Shown here: positions 52,277 to 62,175 of the stretch, piece by piece | How the letters are laid out: the number at the start of each line of letters is the position of its first letter | How positions within the stretch are numbered: position 1 is the first letter of the stretch | DNA from: Chloroflexota bacterium | GTDB lineage: Bacteria > Chloroflexota > Dehalococcoidia > UBA2979 | Direction: 5' to 3' | NCBI GenBank assembly: GCA_026713865.1 | Contig: JAPONQ010000028.1 | Coordinates: 1 to 64,000, forward strand | Length of the DNA: 64,000 nt | Made by a program: the position numbers and the translations under genes | The notes under the pieces: model-generated | Told to the model about the DNA's origin: nothing | The model's input: the letters and a program-made list of their open reading frames with translations, nothing else | Database searches by the model: none

Positions 52277-52495
52277 ATGCGTATATCGAAGCGAGGCCAG
52301 ATCACGATCCCGAAGCATCTGAGAGATCGGTTCGGGATGCACCACAACACCGAGGTGGAGATTCGCGCCACGGAGGAGGGTCTTCTGGTACAGAAGCGGG
52401 CGGCCGTGCCCCATCCTGTCGATCGGGTCGCCGGGATCCTGGACCGTGTCGACCTCGATGTCGATCGGTACATAGAGGACATCCGCGGACTGTGA
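52277..52495 (+). CDS. AbrB-type antitoxin
   Basis: 72 residues from the ATG at 52277 with GGAG six bases upstream. DNA-binding swapped hairpin: MRISKRGQITIPKHLRDRFG, then VEIRATEEGLLVQKR. The C-terminal toxin-binding part (VDLDVDRYIEDIRGL) is intact, but the toxin that follows is truncated. Confidence 0.88.
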   Translation: MRISKRGQITIPKHLRDRFGMHHNTEVEIRATEEGLLVQKRAAVPHPVDRVAGILDRVDLDVDRYIEDIRGL

Positions 52496-52581
52496 TGACG
52501 TCGATCGACACGAGCGTTCTGCTCGATTCTGGTCCGAACCGACTCGCCGCACCACCTCCGGTCGCGCGAATCGGTTCGTAG
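52495..52581 (+). pseudogene. 5' fragment of a PIN toxin
   Basis: The ATG overlaps the antitoxin stop by one base. The first residues MTSIDTSVLLDSG are the PIN start with catalytic Asp, but after about 13 residues the sequence loses similarity and stops at 52579-52581. The remaining ~110 residues of the toxin are gone. Confidence 0.75.
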
Positions 52582-52645
52582 AGCGTATGACGCCGGCAGC
52601 TGTCCACCACGGCGTCTGCATGGTCGGCTCGGGGCACAGCCTCGG

Positions 52646-52963
52646 CTACGCTTGCGAGTGAGCCGCCACCGCGTCGAGCCGTGCGGCGAGGCGGTCGCGA
52701 GCGAGCTCAAGATCGTACTGGGCCTGCAAGCTCATCCAGAAGGCCGCCGAGTTGTTGAAGAAGCGGGAGAGTAGCAAGGCAGTCTCGGCGGTGATCGAGC
52801 GCTGCCCGTGGATGATGGCATGGATCCTGCGCGGGTCGACGCCCACGGCCTTGGCTAGGCGGTACTGCGTGACTCCCAGGGGGAGCAGGAACTCCTCGCG
52901 CAGGATCTCGCCTGGATGCACCGGATCCAGCCGGTCCTGCTGTCGATGTGGTTCCGTGCTCAT
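52646..52963 (-). CDS. higA: HigA-family antitoxin, without adjacent higB
   Basis: 105 residues. Xre-type helix-turn-helix of the HigA/VapI group: VHPGEILREEFLLPLGVTQY, RLAKAVGVDPRRIHAIIHGQ, FFNNSAAFWMSLQAQYDLEL. Normally higB precedes higA; upstream on this strand there is no RelE-type frame, only the divergent higBA pair. It may be solitary, or may regulate the neighbouring pair. Confidence 0.9.
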   Translation of the reverse strand: MSTEPHRQQDRLDPVHPGEILREEFLLPLGVTQYRLAKAVGVDPRRIHAIIHGQRSITAETALLLSRFFNNSAAFWMSLQAQYDLELARDRLAARLDAVAAHSQA

Positions 52964-53076
52964 CGTCTAGCGCCCTCTGATGCCATGTGCAGAGTCGGGC
53001 GGCCGCCCCGCCGCCCGCGCGTGCCGCTCGGCTGGACAGTTCGCGCTCGTCCGACCTATCTTCACACATGGGGTGA

Positions 53077-53373
53077 TTGTTGGAAGTTCGGTTCGCATCG
53101 CGCAGCCTGGAACGGCGCTACACCCAGGGCCAGGAGGCGATACGAGCGTGGGGTCCTCAAGTCGGGCGACGCTATGTCCAGCGCGTTGGCGTCCTCCTCG
53201 AAGCCCTCGATGTGTCGGAGTTGCATGGCTACCGGGCACTCGGTTTTCACCCACTTCGAGGGAACCGGCGAGGGCAGCATGCGCTCCGCCTCACCGGCCA
53301 GATGAGACTGATTGTGACGGTGATCGATGAGCGCACCGTCCGGGTTGAGGAAGTGACGGACTACCATGAGTAG
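53077..53373 (+). CDS. higB: HigB/RelE-type toxin
   Basis: 98 residues; the TTG at 53077 is followed by a second TTG, and no ATG is suitable. The small RelE fold is recognisable: RFASRSLERRYTQGQEAIRA, LHGYRALGFHPLRGNRRGQH, MRLIVTVIDERTVRVEEVTD, ending YHE. HigB toxins cleave mRNA on the ribosome. It overlaps higA by eight bases. The weak start may keep toxin levels low. Confidence 0.85.
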   Translation: MLEVRFASRSLERRYTQGQEAIRAWGPQVGRRYVQRVGVLLEALDVSELHGYRALGFHPLRGNRRGQHALRLTGQMRLIVTVIDERTVRVEEVTDYHE

Positions 53374-53638
53374 CGTGCCCACCCATCTCGAGAGCGACTT
53401 GGCCATCCATCCGGGTGAGCTGCTCGCCGAGGAATTGGAGTCGCGAGGAATGACCCAGAGGGCGCTCGCCGAGGCGATGGGCCGGCCTCCACAGGTCATC
53501 AACGAGATCGTTCGTGGCCGGAAGGCGATCACGGCAGCGACGGCGATCCAGTTGGAGGAGGTTCTTGGCACGTCGGCCCGGCTGTGGCTCGGCCTCCAGG
53601 CCACCTACGAGCTCATCAGGGCCCGCCAGACCATGTGA
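53366..53638 (+). CDS. higA: HigA antitoxin
   Basis: 90 residues; ATG inside the end of higB. Helix-turn-helix pattern IHPGELLAEELESRGMTQRA, LAEAMGRPPQVINEIVRGRK, LGTSARLWLGLQATYELIRA. It should neutralise the adjacent HigB and repress the operon. Confidence 0.92.
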   Translation: MSSVPTHLESDLAIHPGELLAEELESRGMTQRALAEAMGRPPQVINEIVRGRKAITAATAIQLEEVLGTSARLWLGLQATYELIRARQTM

Positions 53639-53909
53639 ACCGAAGTCGGGCAGCTCCTCGTCGAGGGCGCCCAGGAGCGATCCCCCCTAAGTTCCAGCGC
53701 ACGAAGGTGCTGGCCTCGCGCGGTGCAACAGGCACGTCCACGTCCCCGGGCTCGAGCTGGCGGGGAATCGGCGCTCGCCTTATGGCCGCTCGCATTCGGG
53801 CTGCCGAGCCCGGCGGGCCGCCGGTGGCGATAGTGAGGGACGGAGCCGGCCGGCGCTCTCCGTCGGGAGGTCGTGGTACACCGACCGCGCCCGTCACCAC
53901 CGCGAGGCG
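53639..53909. other. Debris between toxin-antitoxin loci
   Basis: About 270 bases without an intact gene. Bases 53653-53684 match 22851-22882, inside the macroglobulin gene, at 31 of 32 positions; the remainder has no recognised similarity. Confidence 0.45.
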
Positions 53910-54353
53910 CTACACCACGTCGGGGCGCAACGGATGCTGCCAGCGCACTCCCGGGAAGCGGTCGAAGTCGGAGTCTGTCGACACCAGCGTGCAACCGTGC
54001 TCGACCGCAACTGCCGCGTGCTGGGCGTCGGCCACCAGCTTCCCCGATGCCCGCGACTCGCGGCACAGTCTCTCGAAGATCTCCAGGTGATCGGGCCCGG
54101 GGCCCACGGTGCGGGCCGTCGGTCGTTCCACGAGTGAGGACACGAACGAGAAGGCCCGGTCGGGCCTGGAGGGCGGGTCGAAGATCCGCGGGTTCGTGAC
54201 GATCCGGACGAAGCCGGCGAGGACGAGCACCGAGAGCGCGAACGGCTCCGGCCCCGTCGCCAGGCGCGTGATCCAGCTCGCGTAGTCGGCGTGATCGGCG
54301 ATCGAGTCCTCGACGTGCGCATACACCAGCACGTTGACGTCGGGAAGCAACAT
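53910..54353 (-). CDS. PIN-domain toxin (VapC type)
   Basis: 147 residues. Start LLPDVNVLVYAHVEDS is typical of the subfamily, with the first catalytic Asp; further acidic residues lie in KLVADAQHAAVAVEHGCTLV and STDSDFDRFPGVRW. It begins six bases after the antitoxin stop in the same direction. Confidence 0.9.
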   Translation of the reverse strand: MLLPDVNVLVYAHVEDSIADHADYASWITRLATGPEPFALSVLVLAGFVRIVTNPRIFDPPSRPDRAFSFVSSLVERPTARTVGPGPDHLEIFERLCRESRASGKLVADAQHAAVAVEHGCTLVSTDSDFDRFPGVRWQHPLRPDVV

Positions 54354-54359
54354 CCGGGA

Positions 54360-54617
54360 TCACCGGCTCTCGCGCGGGAAGCGGGACTCGTCTTCCAGTG
54401 CATCGAGTGCCCGGGGCCGATCGAGGTCGACTCCGGCGCGGGGGCGGACGCCGCGCACCGTGACCAGCTGGAACGGCGGCTGCTCCGAAGGCGTGCGCTG
54501 CTTCATGGCATCGTCCAGGGTCCGGGCGATGAAGGAACTCATGCTGAGGCCCTGCGCGGCGGCTGCCCGCCGCACCTGCTTCGCGAGCCGGTCGTCGAGT
54601 GAGATCGTCGTTCGCAT
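54360..54617 (-). CDS. Ribbon-helix-helix antitoxin
   Basis: 85 residues; the N-terminal RHH pattern RTTISLDDRLAKQVRRAAAA, QGLSMSSFIARTLDD is that of VapB/CopG-like repressors. The Pro-rich C-terminus should wrap the PIN toxin. The operator overlaps its start codon. Confidence 0.88.
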   Translation of the reverse strand: MRTTISLDDRLAKQVRRAAAAQGLSMSSFIARTLDDAMKQRTPSEQPPFQLVTVRGVRPRAGVDLDRPRALDALEDESRFPRESR

Positions 54618-54632
54618 GATGCAATAGCATCA
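54617..54632 (-). promoter_or_regulatory. Palindromic operator of the RHH-PIN pair
   Basis: TGATGC-AATA-GCATCA, perfect 6-bp arms, abutting the antitoxin start codon, followed by a second palindrome CATGCATG a few bases upstream. Expected binding site for the RHH dimer. Confidence 0.6.
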
Positions 54633-55049
54633 CATGCATGCAGCAGCGCATCAAGAGCGGCCATGTGCGTGACAGCGAACCGCATTGAGTTGGTGGACAC
54701 GCAAACGGGAAGTCGCATACGGAGCCCGATCGACGGCACGTGGCACGCCGCCCCATCCGGCGGTCCCTCAGGCAGCTCCCTGAGGCGCGCCGCGTCGCAC
54801 CGGCCCGCTGCCCGACGGCCCCTGAGCCTCATACAAGGAGACTGAGGCTCTCGCGCGCCCGTGGCCTGCTACCAGTAGAGCCGGGGAAGATCCTCCGGGT
54901 CGGCGGGGAGCCGGATCTCGATGCCGCCGACGCCGGATCGAGTGGCAGGGGCACAGCCCGGCGACCGCGAGAGCGGCGGCCGGGTCACGGCGATGAGCGC
55001 GATCGCCGCGCGGGCGACGCCCATCGTGGACTCTCGTTTCCGGCGGCCG
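54633..55049. other. Gap with stem-loop between two toxin loci
   Basis: About 415 bases. GAGCCTCA (54824-54831) and TGAGGCTC (54843-54850) form a perfect 8-bp stem and may end transcription of the upstream minus-strand pair. A 51-codon minus-strand frame (55024-54869, ending IEIRLPADPEDLPRLYW) is possible but unsupported. Confidence 0.4.
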
Positions 55050-55433
55050 TCAGCAGGGGACGACGGCAACGCGCGCGCCGGCGGTGTCGGCAAGGCGGCG
55101 CAGGTCGCCCGGGTCGCTGGTGAGAATGCGATCGCCGGCCTCGGCGACGAGGACCGCGGTGGCGTCGATCGGGTCGGCGGTGCCCGCGCGTCCGAGCAGG
55201 ACTCCGGCGTCGCGTGCGAGCCGATCGTCCACGGGACGGACGTCCACGGCGCCGAGCAGGCGCGCCAGTAGCGCCTGCCGGCCCGCCGGATCGAGCCATA
55301 CTTGGGCGACGACGATGGCGCTTGTCCGAAGCCCGATTCCGTGCCGTTCGGCGGCTCGCAGACGCGCGATCATCGCGCGCTCGCCTCGGTCGACGGCGAC
55401 GAACGCGCCGGCGTCGAGCACGAGCGCGCTCAC
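55050..55433 (-). CDS. PIN-domain toxin
   Basis: 127 residues from the GTG at 55433, which overlaps the antitoxin stop (GTGA). PIN residues: Asp in LVLDAGAFVAVDRGERA, Asp in RAGTADPIDATAVLVAEAGD, and Asp in ILTSDPGDLRRLAD. Length and order are normal for a small PIN toxin. Confidence 0.88.
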   Translation of the reverse strand: MSALVLDAGAFVAVDRGERAMIARLRAAERHGIGLRTSAIVVAQVWLDPAGRQALLARLLGAVDVRPVDDRLARDAGVLLGRAGTADPIDATAVLVAEAGDRILTSDPGDLRRLADTAGARVAVVPC

Positions 55434-55675
55434 CGCGCGGGCGCCTCCGAGGCGAGCCCCAGCTCGGCCTCGGCGCTGCGCAGCTCCTCGGCCGTGAGCG
55501 CGCCGTGCTCCCGCTCCCAGGCGTCGAGGAAGGCTCCGAGCGCCTCCGCGCGCAGCTTCGCCCTGGCCGCGTCGGCCAGCCAGGCGGAGAGACCGCTCCC
55601 ATCCCGCTGCGCGGCCCGGCGAACCGCATCGCCGAGCGCGGGGTCGAGCGAGATGCTCATCTTGTCCACTCGCAT
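55430..55675 (-). CDS. CopG/RHH-like antitoxin
   Basis: 81 residues. The start DKMSISLDPALGDAVRRAAQ, RDGSGLSAWLADAARAKL is a ribbon-helix-helix fold; the helical C-terminus (EREHGALTAEELRSAEAELG) is likely the toxin-binding part. Co-directional and overlapping with the PIN gene. It has a leaderless-type start. Confidence 0.85.
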   Translation of the reverse strand: MRVDKMSISLDPALGDAVRRAAQRDGSGLSAWLADAARAKLRAEALGAFLDAWEREHGALTAEELRSAEAELGLASEAPAR

Positions 55676-56410: not shown

Positions 56411-56689
56411 GTTCGCCCCTGCGAGACGGCACGCGGGCGTGTCCGCCCGGGCCCCGCTGCCTCCGGCGCCTAGCGTACCCCGGATTGTCGCCCGGGTCGG
56501 GGAGCCGGCTGCGCGGCGCTGCGTGCCGAAGGCTCCGCGAACCGGTCGGTGAGCCCCGCGGACGCCCTCGAAGCGGGGGCCGGGGCAGACTCGCGTCTGT
56601 CGTCCGCGAGTCTGCGAAGCCGAAGGCGGTCATGCCGCGGGGTCGAGGTCGCCCTGCGGAGGCGGCGGGCGAAGTCGGTGGCCGGAAGC

Positions 56690-57000
56690 ATGTCGATGCC
56701 GCGGCTGGTGCAGTTGCTCGTCGAGGTCGCGATACGCGACGTACGCCGAGAGCTCGTGGAACACCCAGTTCTCGAACGCCTTCCCGGAGGAGTCGGAACC
56801 GCGCTCCGCTCCCCCCGGCGCGCGAGCCGGTTCACCACGCGGACGTCTTCGACGTAGAGCTTCGGGCCAGCCATGAGCCGGCGTGCGGCTCGCCGCCGCC
56901 AGGCGGGAAGCCAGCGCGCGAGCAGTGTGGCATCGAGGATGCCGAAGTAGGCATTGGCGGTGGGACCGGAGACGCCACACTCGCGCGCCACGCTTCGACG
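56690..57000 (-). pseudogene. Remnant of a DUF4143 AAA ATPase
   Basis: One frame reads SVARECGVSGPTANAYFGIL, RWLPAWRRRAARRLMAGPKL, YVEDVRVVNRLARRG and another continues SSGKAFENWVFHELSAYVAY. Together these match the C-terminal DUF4143 winged-helix and nuclease-like part of such ATPases. The ATPase N-terminus is absent and at least one frameshift is present. Confidence 0.65.
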
Positions 57001-57097
57001 CCTGATGCACCCCTCGCGCGTACCGGATGAGCGCATCCGCGCCGGCCTCCGCCCCACCCTGCGGGAAGGAGGCACCGCTCCGGGACCTGGCGGCGCG

Positions 57098-57119
57098 TTG
57101 ATTGCGATTTGATTGCGAT
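57098..57119. repeat. 11-bp perfect tandem repeat (x2)
   Basis: TTGATTGCGAT occurs twice without a gap, followed by TGGCACCGAT and TAGCACCGCT. GCACCGCTC also occurs at 57072-57080 and 57132-57140. An 11-bp period puts the copies on the same DNA face, as for iterons or multi-site operators, 390-540 bases before the ATPase operon. Confidence 0.6.
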
Positions 57120-57140
57120 TGGCACCGATTAGCACCGCTC

Positions 57141-57510
57141 TGACTGCTCCGTGAGCCTCGTGTGAGCATGCCGCACCGCAGGCTGTTCCTGCATCGCGGC
57201 ACGCCCGGCCACCGGTGCCGGCGTGCCGCGATGCGGAAGGAGGCCGGACGGTGCGTAGAAGCCTGCTCGCCGCCGCCGCCACCGCCGTCTGGCAGGGCTT
57301 GCGGGCGGCGGCGCGGCTCCCGCGCTCCCCGCCGAGTTCACGCCGGCCGGGGGCCGGCGGTGCACGCCCGCCGCCCTTCCTGAGCATCGCCGGGCTCTCG
57401 CGGGCGGCACCGTGCGCTTCCCCGGCGGCCCCGCGCGGGCGCGGCCGGCGGGGCGTCTCGGGAGTGGGAGATGTGCGGGCGCAGGAGGCGCCCGTGGAGA
57501 GGAGAACGCG
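57141..57510. other. Upstream region of the ATPase operon
   Basis: About 370 bases. A GTG frame from 57251 (GGAAGGAGG upstream, ending 57523) could encode a 90-residue Arg/Pro/Ala-rich peptide, but its composition looks non-protein-like. Confidence 0.3.
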
Positions 57511-57662
57511 ATGGACGAGCTGAACACCGTCTTCGACAACCTGATCGAGAGTGGAACCGGTCTCGCGGCGGCGGGCTCGACCGGCTGCGTGATGTGGGGG
57601 CCGTCCTCGACATGCTGCGCGCGCGCGTGATCACGTCGATCGTGCAGGGGGCGGTGGCATGA
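57511..57662 (+). pseudogene. ~50-residue leader gene with apparent -1 frameshift
   Basis: ATG at 57511 with AGAGGAG upstream encodes MDELNTVFDNLIESGTGLAA, then the frame ends at 57630 in an unlikely Cys/Trp/Ser-rich tail. From about 57570 the -1 frame reads LDRLRDVGAVLDMLRARVIT, SIVQGAVA and stops at 57660-57662, overlapping the ATPase start (ATGA). Joined across the GCGGCGGCGGG run, the two make one helical ~50-residue protein. It may be a point insertion, a sequence error, or programmed frameshifting. Confidence 0.55.
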
Positions 57663-60148
57663 TCGGGCGCTCCACGATCGCCATGGCCGGGGGCCTGCTC
57701 GCCGAGGTTGTGCCGCCGCGGCGGCTCGAGGAGGGCGAGCGTGCCGCGCGTGACTTCTTCGCCACGCTCGCGGGGGGCGAGGTGCTCGGCCTTCAGGTCG
57801 TGATCACCGCGGCCGGCCCGCGCTTCCTGCTGCGCGCCGGCTCGGAGGGCGCCCTGGAGCGGGCGCTCTCGCAGCTCGGCGCCGCCTACCCGCAGGTGGG
57901 CGTGGAGCGCCTCGACGCCGCGGGGCGCCCCGACCTCGACCCCGCTCGCTGCGGCCCAGCGGAAGAGGCGGCCTCGCTCTCGCTCGCTCCGCGCGGCGAC
58001 GCGGCGCTCCCGCTGCTGCGCAACGGGAGGGGGGAGGAGTCGCCGCTCGCGGTGGCGCTGGCGGCGGCCCCGCTGCGCTGCGGCGAGCGCGTGCTGATGG
58101 AGCTCGAGATCGCCTCCGCGCCGGCCCGCGCGGCGGCGCGCCTGCGCGCACGCGCGCGGCCTCGGGTCGCACCCGCGCGCGAGGAATCACCCGGCTCCGT
58201 CGCCGACGCCGCCAGGCTCGTGATCCCGCTCGCCGCCGTGGCGGGCGGCCTGCGCCTCTACCTCTGGTACCAGGCGGGCGAGATCCTGCCGCTCGTGCTC
58301 TCCGGCGCCGGCATGCTCGGCGGGGGCGTCCTGCTTGCGCTCGCGGTGCGGGCCCTGAGCGCCCGCTCGGCCCCGCTGGCCCCCGCCCTCGCCGAGCGCA
58401 AGCTCGCGGGTCCGCTCTTCCGCGCCTCGCTGCGCGTGACCGCTATAGGCCCGAGCGGCAGCGGGCGCGCCCGCCTTCCGGCGCTGGCGCGGCAGGTGGC
58501 GGAGGCGCTCTCCGCCCTCGACGATCCCGCGGGGGGCGGCCTGCGTCCGGGCGCCCGGAGCCGCCGGCTGCTGCTGAGCGCCGAAGAGGCGGCCGCTCTC
58601 TGGCACCTTCCGACGGCGGGAGAGGGAGCAGACGGGGCGCGGCGCATGCGCGCGCGCCGGCTCCCGCCCCCGCCCGGGCACGCGCTGCGCGGCACCCGAG
58701 TCGGCACGGCGACCGCAGGCGGCCCCGGTGAGGAGGGCCCGGGCGGCGTCTTCCTCCCCGCGCCCCTCCTCCACCGGAACCAGCTCGTCGTCGCCAAGAC
58801 CCGCCGCGGGAAGTCGACGCTGCTCGCCCACCTGGCGCGCGGGGTGATGGAGCGCGCGCTCGACGAGGAGCGGGCCGCCTCGCTGGTCGTCGTGGATCCG
58901 CATCGCGATCTCGCTGAGGCCGTGCTCGACTCGGTCCCGCCGCAGCTCGCCGGGGACACCGTCTACCTCGACATGGCGCACCGCGAGCGTCCGGTCGGGC
59001 TCAACCTGCTCGACGTCGGGCTCTTCCCCGACCGCGACCTGGCGACCGAGCACGTCGTCACCGTGATGAGCCGAATCTGGCCCGAGAGCTGGGGTCCCCG
59101 CATGGAGGGGGCGCTGCGCAGCTCGGTCGCGACGCTGATGGAGCTGAACCGCGCGCTCCCGCGCGATTGCCAGCACACGCTGCTCGACGTCGCGCCGTTG
59201 CTCGCGGACGTCGAGTACCGCGAAGCGATTCTGGAGCAGCTCGACGACGCGGTGCTCCAGTCGTGGTGGAAGAACAACTTCAACCGCCTGAACAAGACGC
59301 TCCAGCAGCAGGTGGCGACCCCGGTCACGAACAAGATCGGCCGCTTCGTCGTGGCCGAGTCCTCGCGCCTCCTGCTCGGGCAGGCGCGCTCGACCATCGA
59401 TCCCCGCGTGGCGCTCCGCGAGCGCTCCGTGCTCGTCATCAACACCGCGTCGGGCGCGCTGGGCGAGGGCGCCTCGGCGCTCATCGGGGCGACCTGGCTC
59501 AACCTGCTGGGGTTGATGGTGGAGGAGCAGGCGGTGCTCCCGCCCGAAGAGCGACGCCGCGTGGTGGTGCTCGTCGACGAGTCGAGCACGCTCGCCGCCG
59601 TCGACTACCGCCGCATGCTCTCCGAGCTCGTTAAGTACGGGGCGAGCTTCGTGCTCGTCACGCAGGGTCTGGCGATGCTCGACGCCGTCGACCGCCAGCT
59701 CGCGCCGTCGATCCTCTCCAACATCGACGGCCTCACCGTCTTCCAGGTGAGCGCGGAGGACGCCCGACGGCTCGCCCCCGAGCTCGGCGGCGCCCTCGAC
59801 GTCGAGGACCTCACCGGGCTCGACGACTACGAGTGCTACGCGCGGTGGTGGGACGGCCGGACGCGCCCGCGGGCCTTCTCCTTCCGGGTCGACCCGCCGC
59901 CGCGCGGCCGGGCCGCCGCCCGCTCGCAGGTGGCCGAGCGCTCCGCCGCCCGCTTCGGGCGGGCGCGGGAGGAGGTCGCGGCGGAGATCGCCCGCGCGCT
60001 CGGGGCGCCGGGGCGCGCGGTGCGGCGTGCCCTCCCGCCTCCCGTCACGGTCGCCCCGGAGGGCGTCGACCCGCTCGGGCCGGGCGACGGCGGGGCCGAG
60101 GTCGACGGGGAAGGGCCCGCGCCGGCGCCGTGGGAGCGCGGCGGGTGA
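57659..60148 (+). CDS. VirD4/TraD/HerA-like membrane ATPase
   Basis: 829 residues; ATG overlapping the leader gene stop. N-terminal alpha/beta region (about 1-175), two membrane helices (about 185-235: LVIPLAAVAGGLRLYLWY; LPLVLSGAGMLGGGVLLALA), a linker domain, then the ATPase: Walker A VVAKTRRGKSTLLAHLA, ASLVVVDPHRDLAEAV, Walker B RRVVVLVDESSTL, and the sensor strand GASFVLVTQGLAMLDAVDRQ. The TraD-type recognition region is included. A coupling-protein or DNA-pumping role is expected by family. No conjugation genes flank it except the next gene, which overlaps it (GTGA). Confidence 0.9.
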   Translation: MIGRSTIAMAGGLLAEVVPPRRLEEGERAARDFFATLAGGEVLGLQVVITAAGPRFLLRAGSEGALERALSQLGAAYPQVGVERLDAAGRPDLDPARCGPAEEAASLSLAPRGDAALPLLRNGRGEESPLAVALAAAPLRCGERVLMELEIASAPARAAARLRARARPRVAPAREESPGSVADAARLVIPLAAVAGGLRLYLWYQAGEILPLVLSGAGMLGGGVLLALAVRALSARSAPLAPALAERKLAGPLFRASLRVTAIGPSGSGRARLPALARQVAEALSALDDPAGGGLRPGARSRRLLLSAEEAAALWHLPTAGEGADGARRMRARRLPPPPGHALRGTRVGTATAGGPGEEGPGGVFLPAPLLHRNQLVVAKTRRGKSTLLAHLARGVMERALDEERAASLVVVDPHRDLAEAVLDSVPPQLAGDTVYLDMAHRERPVGLNLLDVGLFPDRDLATEHVVTVMSRIWPESWGPRMEGALRSSVATLMELNRALPRDCQHTLLDVAPLLADVEYREAILEQLDDAVLQSWWKNNFNRLNKTLQQQVATPVTNKIGRFVVAESSRLLLGQARSTIDPRVALRERSVLVINTASGALGEGASALIGATWLNLLGLMVEEQAVLPPEERRRVVVLVDESSTLAAVDYRRMLSELVKYGASFVLVTQGLAMLDAVDRQLAPSILSNIDGLTVFQVSAEDARRLAPELGGALDVEDLTGLDDYECYARWWDGRTRPRAFSFRVDPPPRGRAAARSQVAERSAARFGRAREEVAAEIARALGAPGRAVRRALPPPVTVAPEGVDPLGPGDGGAEVDGEGPAPAPWERGG

Positions 60149-62175
60149 GGGCCACGCCCCCCGGGGCGCAGGTGCTGCTGCGCGCGCTCGAGTGCGTCGC
60201 GCGCCTCCCGCTGCTGGGCGACCGTGAGCTCGGGCAGCTTCTGGGCGTCAGCGAGCACGAGGCGCTCTCCCTGCGCCGGGAGCTGGAGCGGCTCGGGTGG
60301 GTGGAGTGGGTGATGCCGGACTCGGCCCAGATCCAGCCGCGGCGCCGGGCGTTCCTGCGGCCGGAGGCCGTGCCGGAGCTCGCGGCGCTGCTGGGGCGGC
60401 CCCCAGGGGAGATCACGGCGCGCCTCGCCGTCAGGCGTTCCGACGTCCTGGCCGGGATCGCGGCGATGGAGGCGGCGGTAGGGGTCAACGCGCTGCTGGT
60501 GGGGCTCGCCCGCGAGAGCGGCTGGCGCGGGGCGGCGCTCGCCGACGGCCGCCGCCTCCCGGCGGACCGGCGCGATCTTCCCCGCGCCGGCGGGGCGGGC
60601 CCGGGGGAGCCCGGGCGGCGCCCCTCCGCACGGGACTTCTGGTACCCGGGCGGCGTCGCCGCCTACGGCTGCCTCCGGTGGGGCGGCCGCGTCGCCCCCT
60701 TCTTCGTGGCGTGGGACCGCGCCGGCACGCCCGCCTGGCAGCGGCGGAACCTGCTCCGGGGCTGGGCCCGCTTCCGCTTCAGCGAGAATCCCTGGGGCCC
60801 CGGCGGCCTTCCGCCCGTCGTGATCGCCGCCGCGGGCGGCGCCGAGCTCGCGCAGTGGCGAGACGCGGCGAGGTGGCGCGAGTCGCGGGCGGGCGAGCCG
60901 CTCCCGCTGGTGCGGGCGACGGTGCCGGAGCTCGCCTCCGCCGGCCCGGGCGGCGCGATCTGGCGCACGCCGTCGGACCCCCGGCGCGCCCCCCTCGCCC
61001 GGCGCCTGGGCTGGCGGCTCCGCGGGTCGCTCCCGCCCGCGTCCCGGCCCGCCGCCTGGCCGGCCGGGACGGCGGCGCTGCCGCGGCGCGAGGCTGCCGC
61101 CTCGCCGCCGCTCCGCAGCCGCGTCCGCCTGCTGGGGCGCCGGCGCCTGGGCGCCCGCTCCCGCCGCGAGCGCATCGCTCTCGTCTCGCTCGCGACCGAT
61201 CGGGAGGAGAAGCGCCTGGTCGAGTACGTGGGGCGCAACCCCCTGCTCGACGAGGCGCAGCTGGCGGCGCTGCTGGATCTCCCGCGGGCGGCGACGCGCC
61301 GCCGCCTCGATAGGCTGCTCCGGCTCGGGGTGATCGCGCCGCTGTCGCGCCGCGCCGCCGGCGACGACGGCGGCGAGCCGCCTCCGCGCTTCCTGCTCTC
61401 GACGGCGGGCCTGCGCTGGCTCGCCGCCCGCGACCGCGTGCCGTTCTCCGTCTACGCTTGCTACGGCGCCGCGATCGCCCTCTCGGACGGCGGGACGCGG
61501 CCCACGCGGCCCTCGCGCGCCTACCGCGACTTCGAGCACACGCTGGGCCTGAACCGCGCCCTGGTCCGCTTCGCCGTCGACGCGCGGGCGACGGGCGCGC
61601 GGTTGCAGGCGTGGCATCCGGACGCGGCCTCGGAGCGGCGGTTCGTGCTCGCCGACGGTCGCAGCGCCCGCATCTGCCCGGACGGCGCCGGCGTGCTGGT
61701 GCGCGGCCCGGAGACCTGCTCCTTCCTGCTCGAGTACGACCGCGGAACGCTCGACGTCGGCCGCTACCGGCAGAAGCTCTTGGGCTACCGGGCCTACTTC
61801 TCACAGGAGGGGTGGCGGGCCGACTTCCCGAGCCGGCCGCTGCTCCTCTTCGCCTGCGCCCGCTACCGGGGGGATGAGATCGTGGTGCGCGCGGCCGAAC
61901 GGTGGAGCCCCGGACGGGAGCTGCTGCTCGCGCCCGAGTGGCGCTACGAGAGCGGCCGGGACGGCGGGATCCTGGGGCCCGTCTGGCGCCGGAAGCCGGG
62001 CCCCGAGCTCGACGGCACGCTCTTCCAGTGGAACGCGGTGCTGGGCGGGCGGGGCGGAGACGCTTCCGGCGGCGAATCGCCCCCACCGATGCGGGCACCC
62101 GTTTCCGCAGGGTCCGCACACCGGCGCCGGTCGGCCGGGTCCGGGAAGCGATCAAGGCCGGAGCGGAGTGGTTGA
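60145..62175 (+). CDS. Replication-relaxation family protein
   Basis: 676 residues from the GTG at 60145, overlapping the ATPase stop. Winged-helix units near 10-70 (LPLLGDRELGQLLGVSEHEA, SLRRELERLGWVEWV) and 350-400 (DEAQLAALLDLPRAATRRRL, DRLLRLGVIAPLS). The C-terminal domain has the Replic_Relax landmarks RDFEHTLGLNRALVRFAVDA, LQAWHPD, ICPDGAGVL, FLLEYDRGTLDVGRYRQKLL, GYRAYFSQEGW. This family occurs on conjugative plasmids and elements; the Asp/Glu set recalls a nuclease-like fold. It is clearly a partner of the ATPase. Confidence 0.85.
   Translation: MRATPPGAQVLLRALECVARLPLLGDRELGQLLGVSEHEALSLRRELERLGWVEWVMPDSAQIQPRRRAFLRPEAVPELAALLGRPPGEITARLAVRRSDVLAGIAAMEAAVGVNALLVGLARESGWRGAALADGRRLPADRRDLPRAGGAGPGEPGRRPSARDFWYPGGVAAYGCLRWGGRVAPFFVAWDRAGTPAWQRRNLLRGWARFRFSENPWGPGGLPPVVIAAAGGAELAQWRDAARWRESRAGEPLPLVRATVPELASAGPGGAIWRTPSDPRRAPLARRLGWRLRGSLPPASRPAAWPAGTAALPRREAAASPPLRSRVRLLGRRRLGARSRRERIALVSLATDREEKRLVEYVGRNPLLDEAQLAALLDLPRAATRRRLDRLLRLGVIAPLSRRAAGDDGGEPPPRFLLSTAGLRWLAARDRVPFSVYACYGAAIALSDGGTRPTRPSRAYRDFEHTLGLNRALVRFAVDARATGARLQAWHPDAASERRFVLADGRSARICPDGAGVLVRGPETCSFLLEYDRGTLDVGRYRQKLLGYRAYFSQEGWRADFPSRPLLLFACARYRGDEIVVRAAERWSPGRELLLAPEWRYESGRDGGILGPVWRRKPGPELDGTLFQWNAVLGGRGGDASGGESPPPMRAPVSAGSAHRRRSAGSGKRSRPERSG

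Follow-up and report, generated by a model that had tools for sequence, protein, structure and literature searches.

A very probable deletion derivative of a Chloroflexota conjugative element retaining a coupling ATPase and a predicted MOBC relaxase

The Replic_Relax family (PF13814) has been placed in the MobC/MOBC superfamily (PMC5357655). MOBC proteins are related to PD-(D/E)XK enzymes, and TraX of pAD1, the prototype of MOBC conjugation, has a winged helix and a restriction-endonuclease-like active site; in the oriT of TraX, nic is separated from direct repeats by about 70-120 bp (PMC12857230). In CloDF13 the coupling protein (T4CP) MobB and the relaxase MobC work with a helper pore (PMC7431656). 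Streptococcal IMEs likewise carry a PF13814 relaxase and a VirD4-type T4CP without VirB4 (PMC5357655, PMC12479173).

The locus compared with these systems lies in a window of 64,000 nucleotides, bases 1-64000 of contig C28 of a 2.52 Mb assembly that is 93% complete. A sequence-only reading had described three overlapping genes here and proposed an undescribed DNA-handling system. The features of the locus are as follows.

57098-57257, plus strand: non-coding element head, candidate oriT or operon leader (repeats, hairpin, RBS-like motif, match to contig C30 of the same genome)
57249-57277, plus strand: TrbL/VirB6 stub, start codon and first codons with the remainder deleted (the C30/window match enters the TrbL start at C30 7584)
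57511-57662, plus strand: broken T4SS pilin (VirB2-like) gene, the "leader" of the sequence-only reading (alignments to the intact pilins of C43, C30 and C8)
57659-60148, plus strand: T4CP (VirD4/TrwB-type coupling ATPase), 829 aa (PF10412 above cut-off, TrwB profile match, AF2 model)
60145-62175, plus strand: predicted MOBC-family relaxase (Replic_Relax, PF13814), 676 aa (PF13814 at 69 bits, AF2 model)

Two of the three genes are as described. The ATPase and PF13814 reading frames overlap by 4 bp, with the GTG start of the second inside the stop of the first, and both (829 and 676 aa) show the codon-position bias of the host genome strongly. Of the positions on which 95% or more of the relatives agree, the window copies retain 100 of 103 in the T4CP and 11 of 11 in the relaxase; both proteins therefore look to have been under constraint until recently, or to be so still. 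Rfam and tRNA scans across the window gave no matches.

The ATPase had been read as a membrane-anchored VirD4/HerA-like enzyme. It matches TrwB_AAD_bind (PF10412) at 24.4 bits against a cut-off of 20.5, with weaker matches to TraG-D_C and DUF87, and a PDB profile search finds TrwB (E 5.7e-5). The AlphaFold model contains two long N-terminal helices, at residues 181-205 and 209-236, and an alpha-rich insert at about 459-587. The GKS and DE columns of the Walker motifs are invariant in the family alignment. The coupling-protein domain, Walker motifs, membrane helices and all-alpha domain expected of a T4CP are all present. The AF2 model fits TrwB with TMt values of 0.61-0.68 over about 440 columns, while the values for HerA are 0.31-0.50, and with this better fit a T4CP is more likely than a HerA-type enzyme.

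The second protein had been taken for a replication-relaxation protein with two winged-helix regions, and the neighbourhood was said to contain no relaxase. The description stands, but the absence does not, because PF13814 is a MOBC relaxase family. The 676-aa protein scores 69 bits against Replic_Relax (gathering cut-off 25.3) and is predicted to be a MOBC-family relaxase. Its AlphaFold model (pLDDT 85.5, pTM 0.86) is composed of two winged-helix plus nuclease-like units. The two winged-helix regions have PDB matches of MarR type, and a restriction-endonuclease fold of the catalytic domain is tentatively suggested by a weak match to the restriction enzyme PaqCI (E 0.03). The two halves of the protein align to each other with an hhalign probability of 99.8% (E 3e-30). 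Residues of catalytic type, H465, P512-D513, E530-x-D532-R533 and K544, are confined to the C-terminal copy. In the family alignment the H, PD and E positions (including P512-D513 and E530) are invariant in 60 of 60 sequences, position 532 is D or E, position 533 is R in 58 of 60, and position 544 is K or R. The relaxase is, as modelled, a tandem duplication of a winged helix and a nuclease-like domain in which the N-terminal half is degenerate; the comparison with other MOBC proteins covered the CloDF13-type MobC of 243 aa and the aligned family members.

The CloDF13-type MobC scores 79 bits against PF13814 and its gene lies directly downstream of a T4CP gene, with the start of one touching the stop of the other and without pore genes, in a record typed MOBC; the MobC motif region occurs in 834 plasmid records, 807 of them typed mobilizable. 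The motif in this MobC reads PDALAELDGRTVAFEVERTVK, and the pattern PD ... E-x-[D/E]-R is common to it and the window relaxase family, an agreement with PD-(D/E)XK-type residues that was judged by motif and not by solved structure. The likeness to TraX is one of description. The CloDF13 module is found on a plasmid, whereas the window pair lies on a chromosomal-type contig and would be ICE-derived by deletion. The similarity in sequence to CloDF13-type MobC, which has a much shorter chain without the duplicated domain, is remote: comparison of the relaxase family profile with this single MobC by hhalign was uninformative, and the link is made through the common Pfam model. A tblastn search of the relaxase against plasmids gave no match. 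The MOBP-type family PF03432, the sole classical relaxase family sought, was not found in the genome. Unlike the Streptococcus IMEs, the window pair has no integrase beside it, and it belongs to a different phylum.

Relatives of the pair occur in full elements with the order TrbL, SLT transglycosylase, small protein, pilin, PrgI, small protein, VirB4, CHC2/Toprim primase, T4CP, PF13814 and a terminal recombinase of serine or tyrosine type. The elements of C30, of contig G014:C39 and of SURF_43 (L046) have this gene order and a T4CP 54-57% identical to that of the window; their pore genes are complete, and a primase and a recombinase are present, all of which the window lacks. In the host genome the ATPase occurs in four long copies, besides several fragments. 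C30 holds a full T4SS set with a recombinase. C43, cut off by the contig end at the T4CP start, has the pore and primase genes. The genome also contains the eroded copies C42 (pilin, primase, T4CP, relaxase and integrase, without VirB4), C99 (head, TrbL fragment and a BTAD regulator) and C8. The last of these (L157, G000:C8, 3486-9997) consists of a hairpin head, TrbL, pilin, PrgI and VirB4, without T4CP, primase or relaxase, and its losses are the mirror image of those in the window. It adjoins dnaN, as does a reduced element in G014:C34 (L039). The earlier statement that no VirB-type channel lies in the neighbourhood is correct for the surroundings of the pair, but elsewhere in the genome three loci (C30, C43 and C8) have pore genes.

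Several other features of these elements were observed. Joining C43 and C50 as a single element was considered and rejected; the contig ends overlap at only 82% identity, and they are therefore different copies. In two genera, elements adjoin smpB with a serine recombinase (L032, G000:C50; L038, G014:C39), suggesting a common integration site. A protein of 1000-1170 aa with a C-terminal BTAD regulatory domain is encoded beside elements at L030 10270-13299, L039 301-3504, L172 4200-7703 and the start of L046. A second, more distant family of T4CP and PF13814 pairs is present in the same genome (L033, L034 and L035, on C57, C76 and C27), with small HTH proteins nearby. In L079 (7899-14118) a relaxase and a T4CP in reversed order are accompanied by a tyrosine integrase, without VirB4; this is likely a mobilizable element with an IME-like set.

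The first of the three genes had been described as a small helical leader protein. However, the ATG at 57511 opens a frame of only 39 aa, with a stop at 57630, and the 152 nt of 57511-57662 are not a single reading frame. In the assembled sequence this copy aligns at both ends with intact pilins, which have 76-78 aa in the same genome, and 79 bp are absent from the middle of the gene. The pilin copy of a close relative matches the T4SS pilin family PF18895. An intact PF18895-type reading frame with two hydrophobic helices is absent at the window "leader", the frame being lost with the 79-bp deletion. By alignment, the "leader" is a putative pilin pseudogene of the PF18895 family.

The DNA comparison extends to both sides of the pilin. 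Positions 57098-57277 match C30 upstream of and into TrbL, the head being 75% identical to C30 7435-7610, immediately upstream of TrbL (E 3.6e-25). Pilin homology begins upstream at about 57475; the segments 57475-57614 and 57613-57677 match the two pilin ends, and the latter enters the first PrgI codons. The start codon and first six or so codons of the ATPase gene are derived from PrgI, and T4CP homology begins at about 57698. This fusion of the first PrgI codons to the T4CP explains the overlap of the pilin stop with the ATPase start. The compact arrangement apparently arose through the loss of three or more segments (TrbL to pilin, 79 bp within the pilin, and PrgI to T4CP), which joined the remaining parts. 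Compactness had been taken as a sign that the locus is not decaying, but remnants of TrbL, pilin and PrgI lie in ancestral order around three deletions and contradict that argument.

The element head contains two 11-bp direct repeats, TTGATTGCGAT, at 57098-57119, and a hairpin with 19-bp arms at 57186-57238, followed by the RBS-like GGAAGGAGG. The repeats are located about 70 bp from the hairpin, which may be compared with the spacing of repeats and nic in the TraX oriT. The DNA fold of the hairpin (z = -5.6) is more stable than 200 of 200 shuffles. Two compensated pairs are found across three sequences; larger counts include each palindrome read again on the reverse strand and are not independent. 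A covariance model built from C30, C8 and the window matches the heads of these three and of C99 (E<=9e-19) and that of L046 (E 1.3e-5), C99 and L046 being outside the training set. Beyond the genus the model is convincing in L046 only; the G011 match has 38 bits. The pattern TTGATTGN4TTGATTG occurs four times in the genome, always at an element head, and the control gave 0. The head with its repeats and hairpin is a candidate oriT. The main alternative is that it could be an mRNA leader instead, because the hairpin abuts the RBS.

The reading from sequence had named, as its own refutation, homologous pairs that are always embedded in full conjugative elements, and this is largely what is observed. 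Among 45 homologous loci whose flanks reach 7 kb or more upstream and 2.5 kb or more downstream, VirB4 is present in 38 and PF13814 adjoins the ATPase in 41. Six pairs of T4CP and PF13814 without VirB4 exist (window, C42 (L030), L040, L079, L090 and L110). Because the loci were picked by a sequence pattern, are limited to the best 80 collection matches and include several copies from one genome, the counts are descriptive.

The locus is very probably a deletion derivative of a Chloroflexota integrative conjugative element that retains the mobilisation module, because collinear scraps of the full-element order persist in the window. It is a remnant of a known kind rather than a novel system for DNA handling or defence; the earlier suggestion of a minimal transfer module was close, since a coupling protein and relaxase pair is present, but the system is not an undescribed one. 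Profiles built for VirB4, PrgI, TrbL and the recombinase gave no matches in the window, where only the scraps remain. A complete ICE has VirB4 and pore genes in cis, and these are missing here; an IME has a relaxase without VirB4, as in the window, but the window has no recombinase match. Against a deletion derivative stand the missing boundaries: a search for att sites as direct repeats around the pair gave only GC-rich repeats of chance type, and neither a left boundary nor a clean empty site was found for the window element. In G001, of the same genus, the right-hand neighbour (a substrate-binding protein) matches the window from 62590 with 86.6% DNA identity, and the pair is absent upstream of this gene. 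The comparison supports acquisition or rearrangement at the right-hand boundary, although G001 does not offer a clean empty site.

A complete element would use its relaxase to bind the repeats and nick at the oriT, as expected from the MOBC family, and its coupling ATPase to pass the strand on to a VirB-type pore, as expected from the T4CP family. Deletions would then have taken out the stretch that runs from TrbL, most of which is lost, to the pilin, a portion of the pilin itself, and the stretch from PrgI to the primase. Left over, still in ancestral order, would be the non-coding head as a candidate oriT and the genes for the coupling protein and the MOBC relaxase. The locus cannot transfer by itself because the pore genes and recombinase are missing. 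At most it might borrow the pore of another element in the same cell, as CloDF13 does, and mobilisation in trans by pores from the three other loci is possible.

We consider it rather unlikely that the module works at present, with the relaxase nicking the head, the T4CP delivering to the pore of C30, C43 or C8, and the flanking chromosome being mobilised. The DNA moved would include a toxin-antitoxin-like cluster at 52277-55675, which had been reported beside the locus and is present there; it comprises a MazE-type regulator, a HigA-like protein, a HigB/HigA pair, a PIN/RHH pair and a second small, VapBC-sized pair of reading frames without Pfam matches. The reported DUF4143 remnant is also present (56470-57387, minus strand, about 65 domain residues), and its domain match ends left of the element head. 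Intact reading frames with their conserved columns, the intact hairpin, pore genes at three loci, and the CloDF13 and streptococcal precedents all speak for a working module. However, no excision recombinase is found in the window, the N-terminus of the T4CP is changed through the PrgI fusion, and the conserved reading frames may just reflect recent deletions. A still-active module without recombinase, in which a tandem-duplicated MOBC relaxase, T4CP and oriT are kept under selection, use the pores of other loci and move chromosomal DNA, seems to us improbable.

The remaining explanations dispense with the pore or with transfer. DNA donation without a T4SS, in which an ATPase and a nuclease export DNA as in the TdtA-NurA transjugation of Thermus (PMC5365140), would suit an ATPase with a nuclease-type partner and no pore genes, and HerA is among the fold-search matches of the ATPase. 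It is very unlikely, as TrwB fits the model better than HerA, the partner is PF13814 and not NurA, and most relatives have VirB4. The proposed anti-plasmid or anti-phage defence operon has the neighbouring toxin-antitoxin cluster in its favour, together with a weak match between the ATPase and mads_8 in PADLOC (E 5e-12) that probably reflects an ATPase core common to both. However, the PF13814 protein has no strong defence-family match (best E 0.0017), no defined anti-phage defence system was matched by both proteins, and the homologues and gene order are conjugative; a defence role is hardly credible and the proposal found no support. The proposed plasmid segregation or replication device takes "replication-relaxation" literally, and besides the Pfam name there is a weak PHROG match to "replication initiation by nicking" (E 6e-4). 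The context is of chromosomal type, no partition gene or replicon was seen, and the Pfam name includes MOBC relaxases. This proposal, likewise without support, is the least credible of all.

With the locus read as a deletion derivative, the proposed new system becomes a readable series of deletions in a conjugative element. It is also a warning that decay can hide behind compact reading frames and intact motifs in raw sequence. As a structural variant, the duplicated relaxase with one degenerate half is open to a direct check. The literature searched holds little published conjugation work on Chloroflexota, and the head supplies a testable candidate oriT for the MOBC relaxase family in this phylum. 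If mobilisation in trans does occur, pore genes at one locus would serve the relaxase and T4CP pairs at others.
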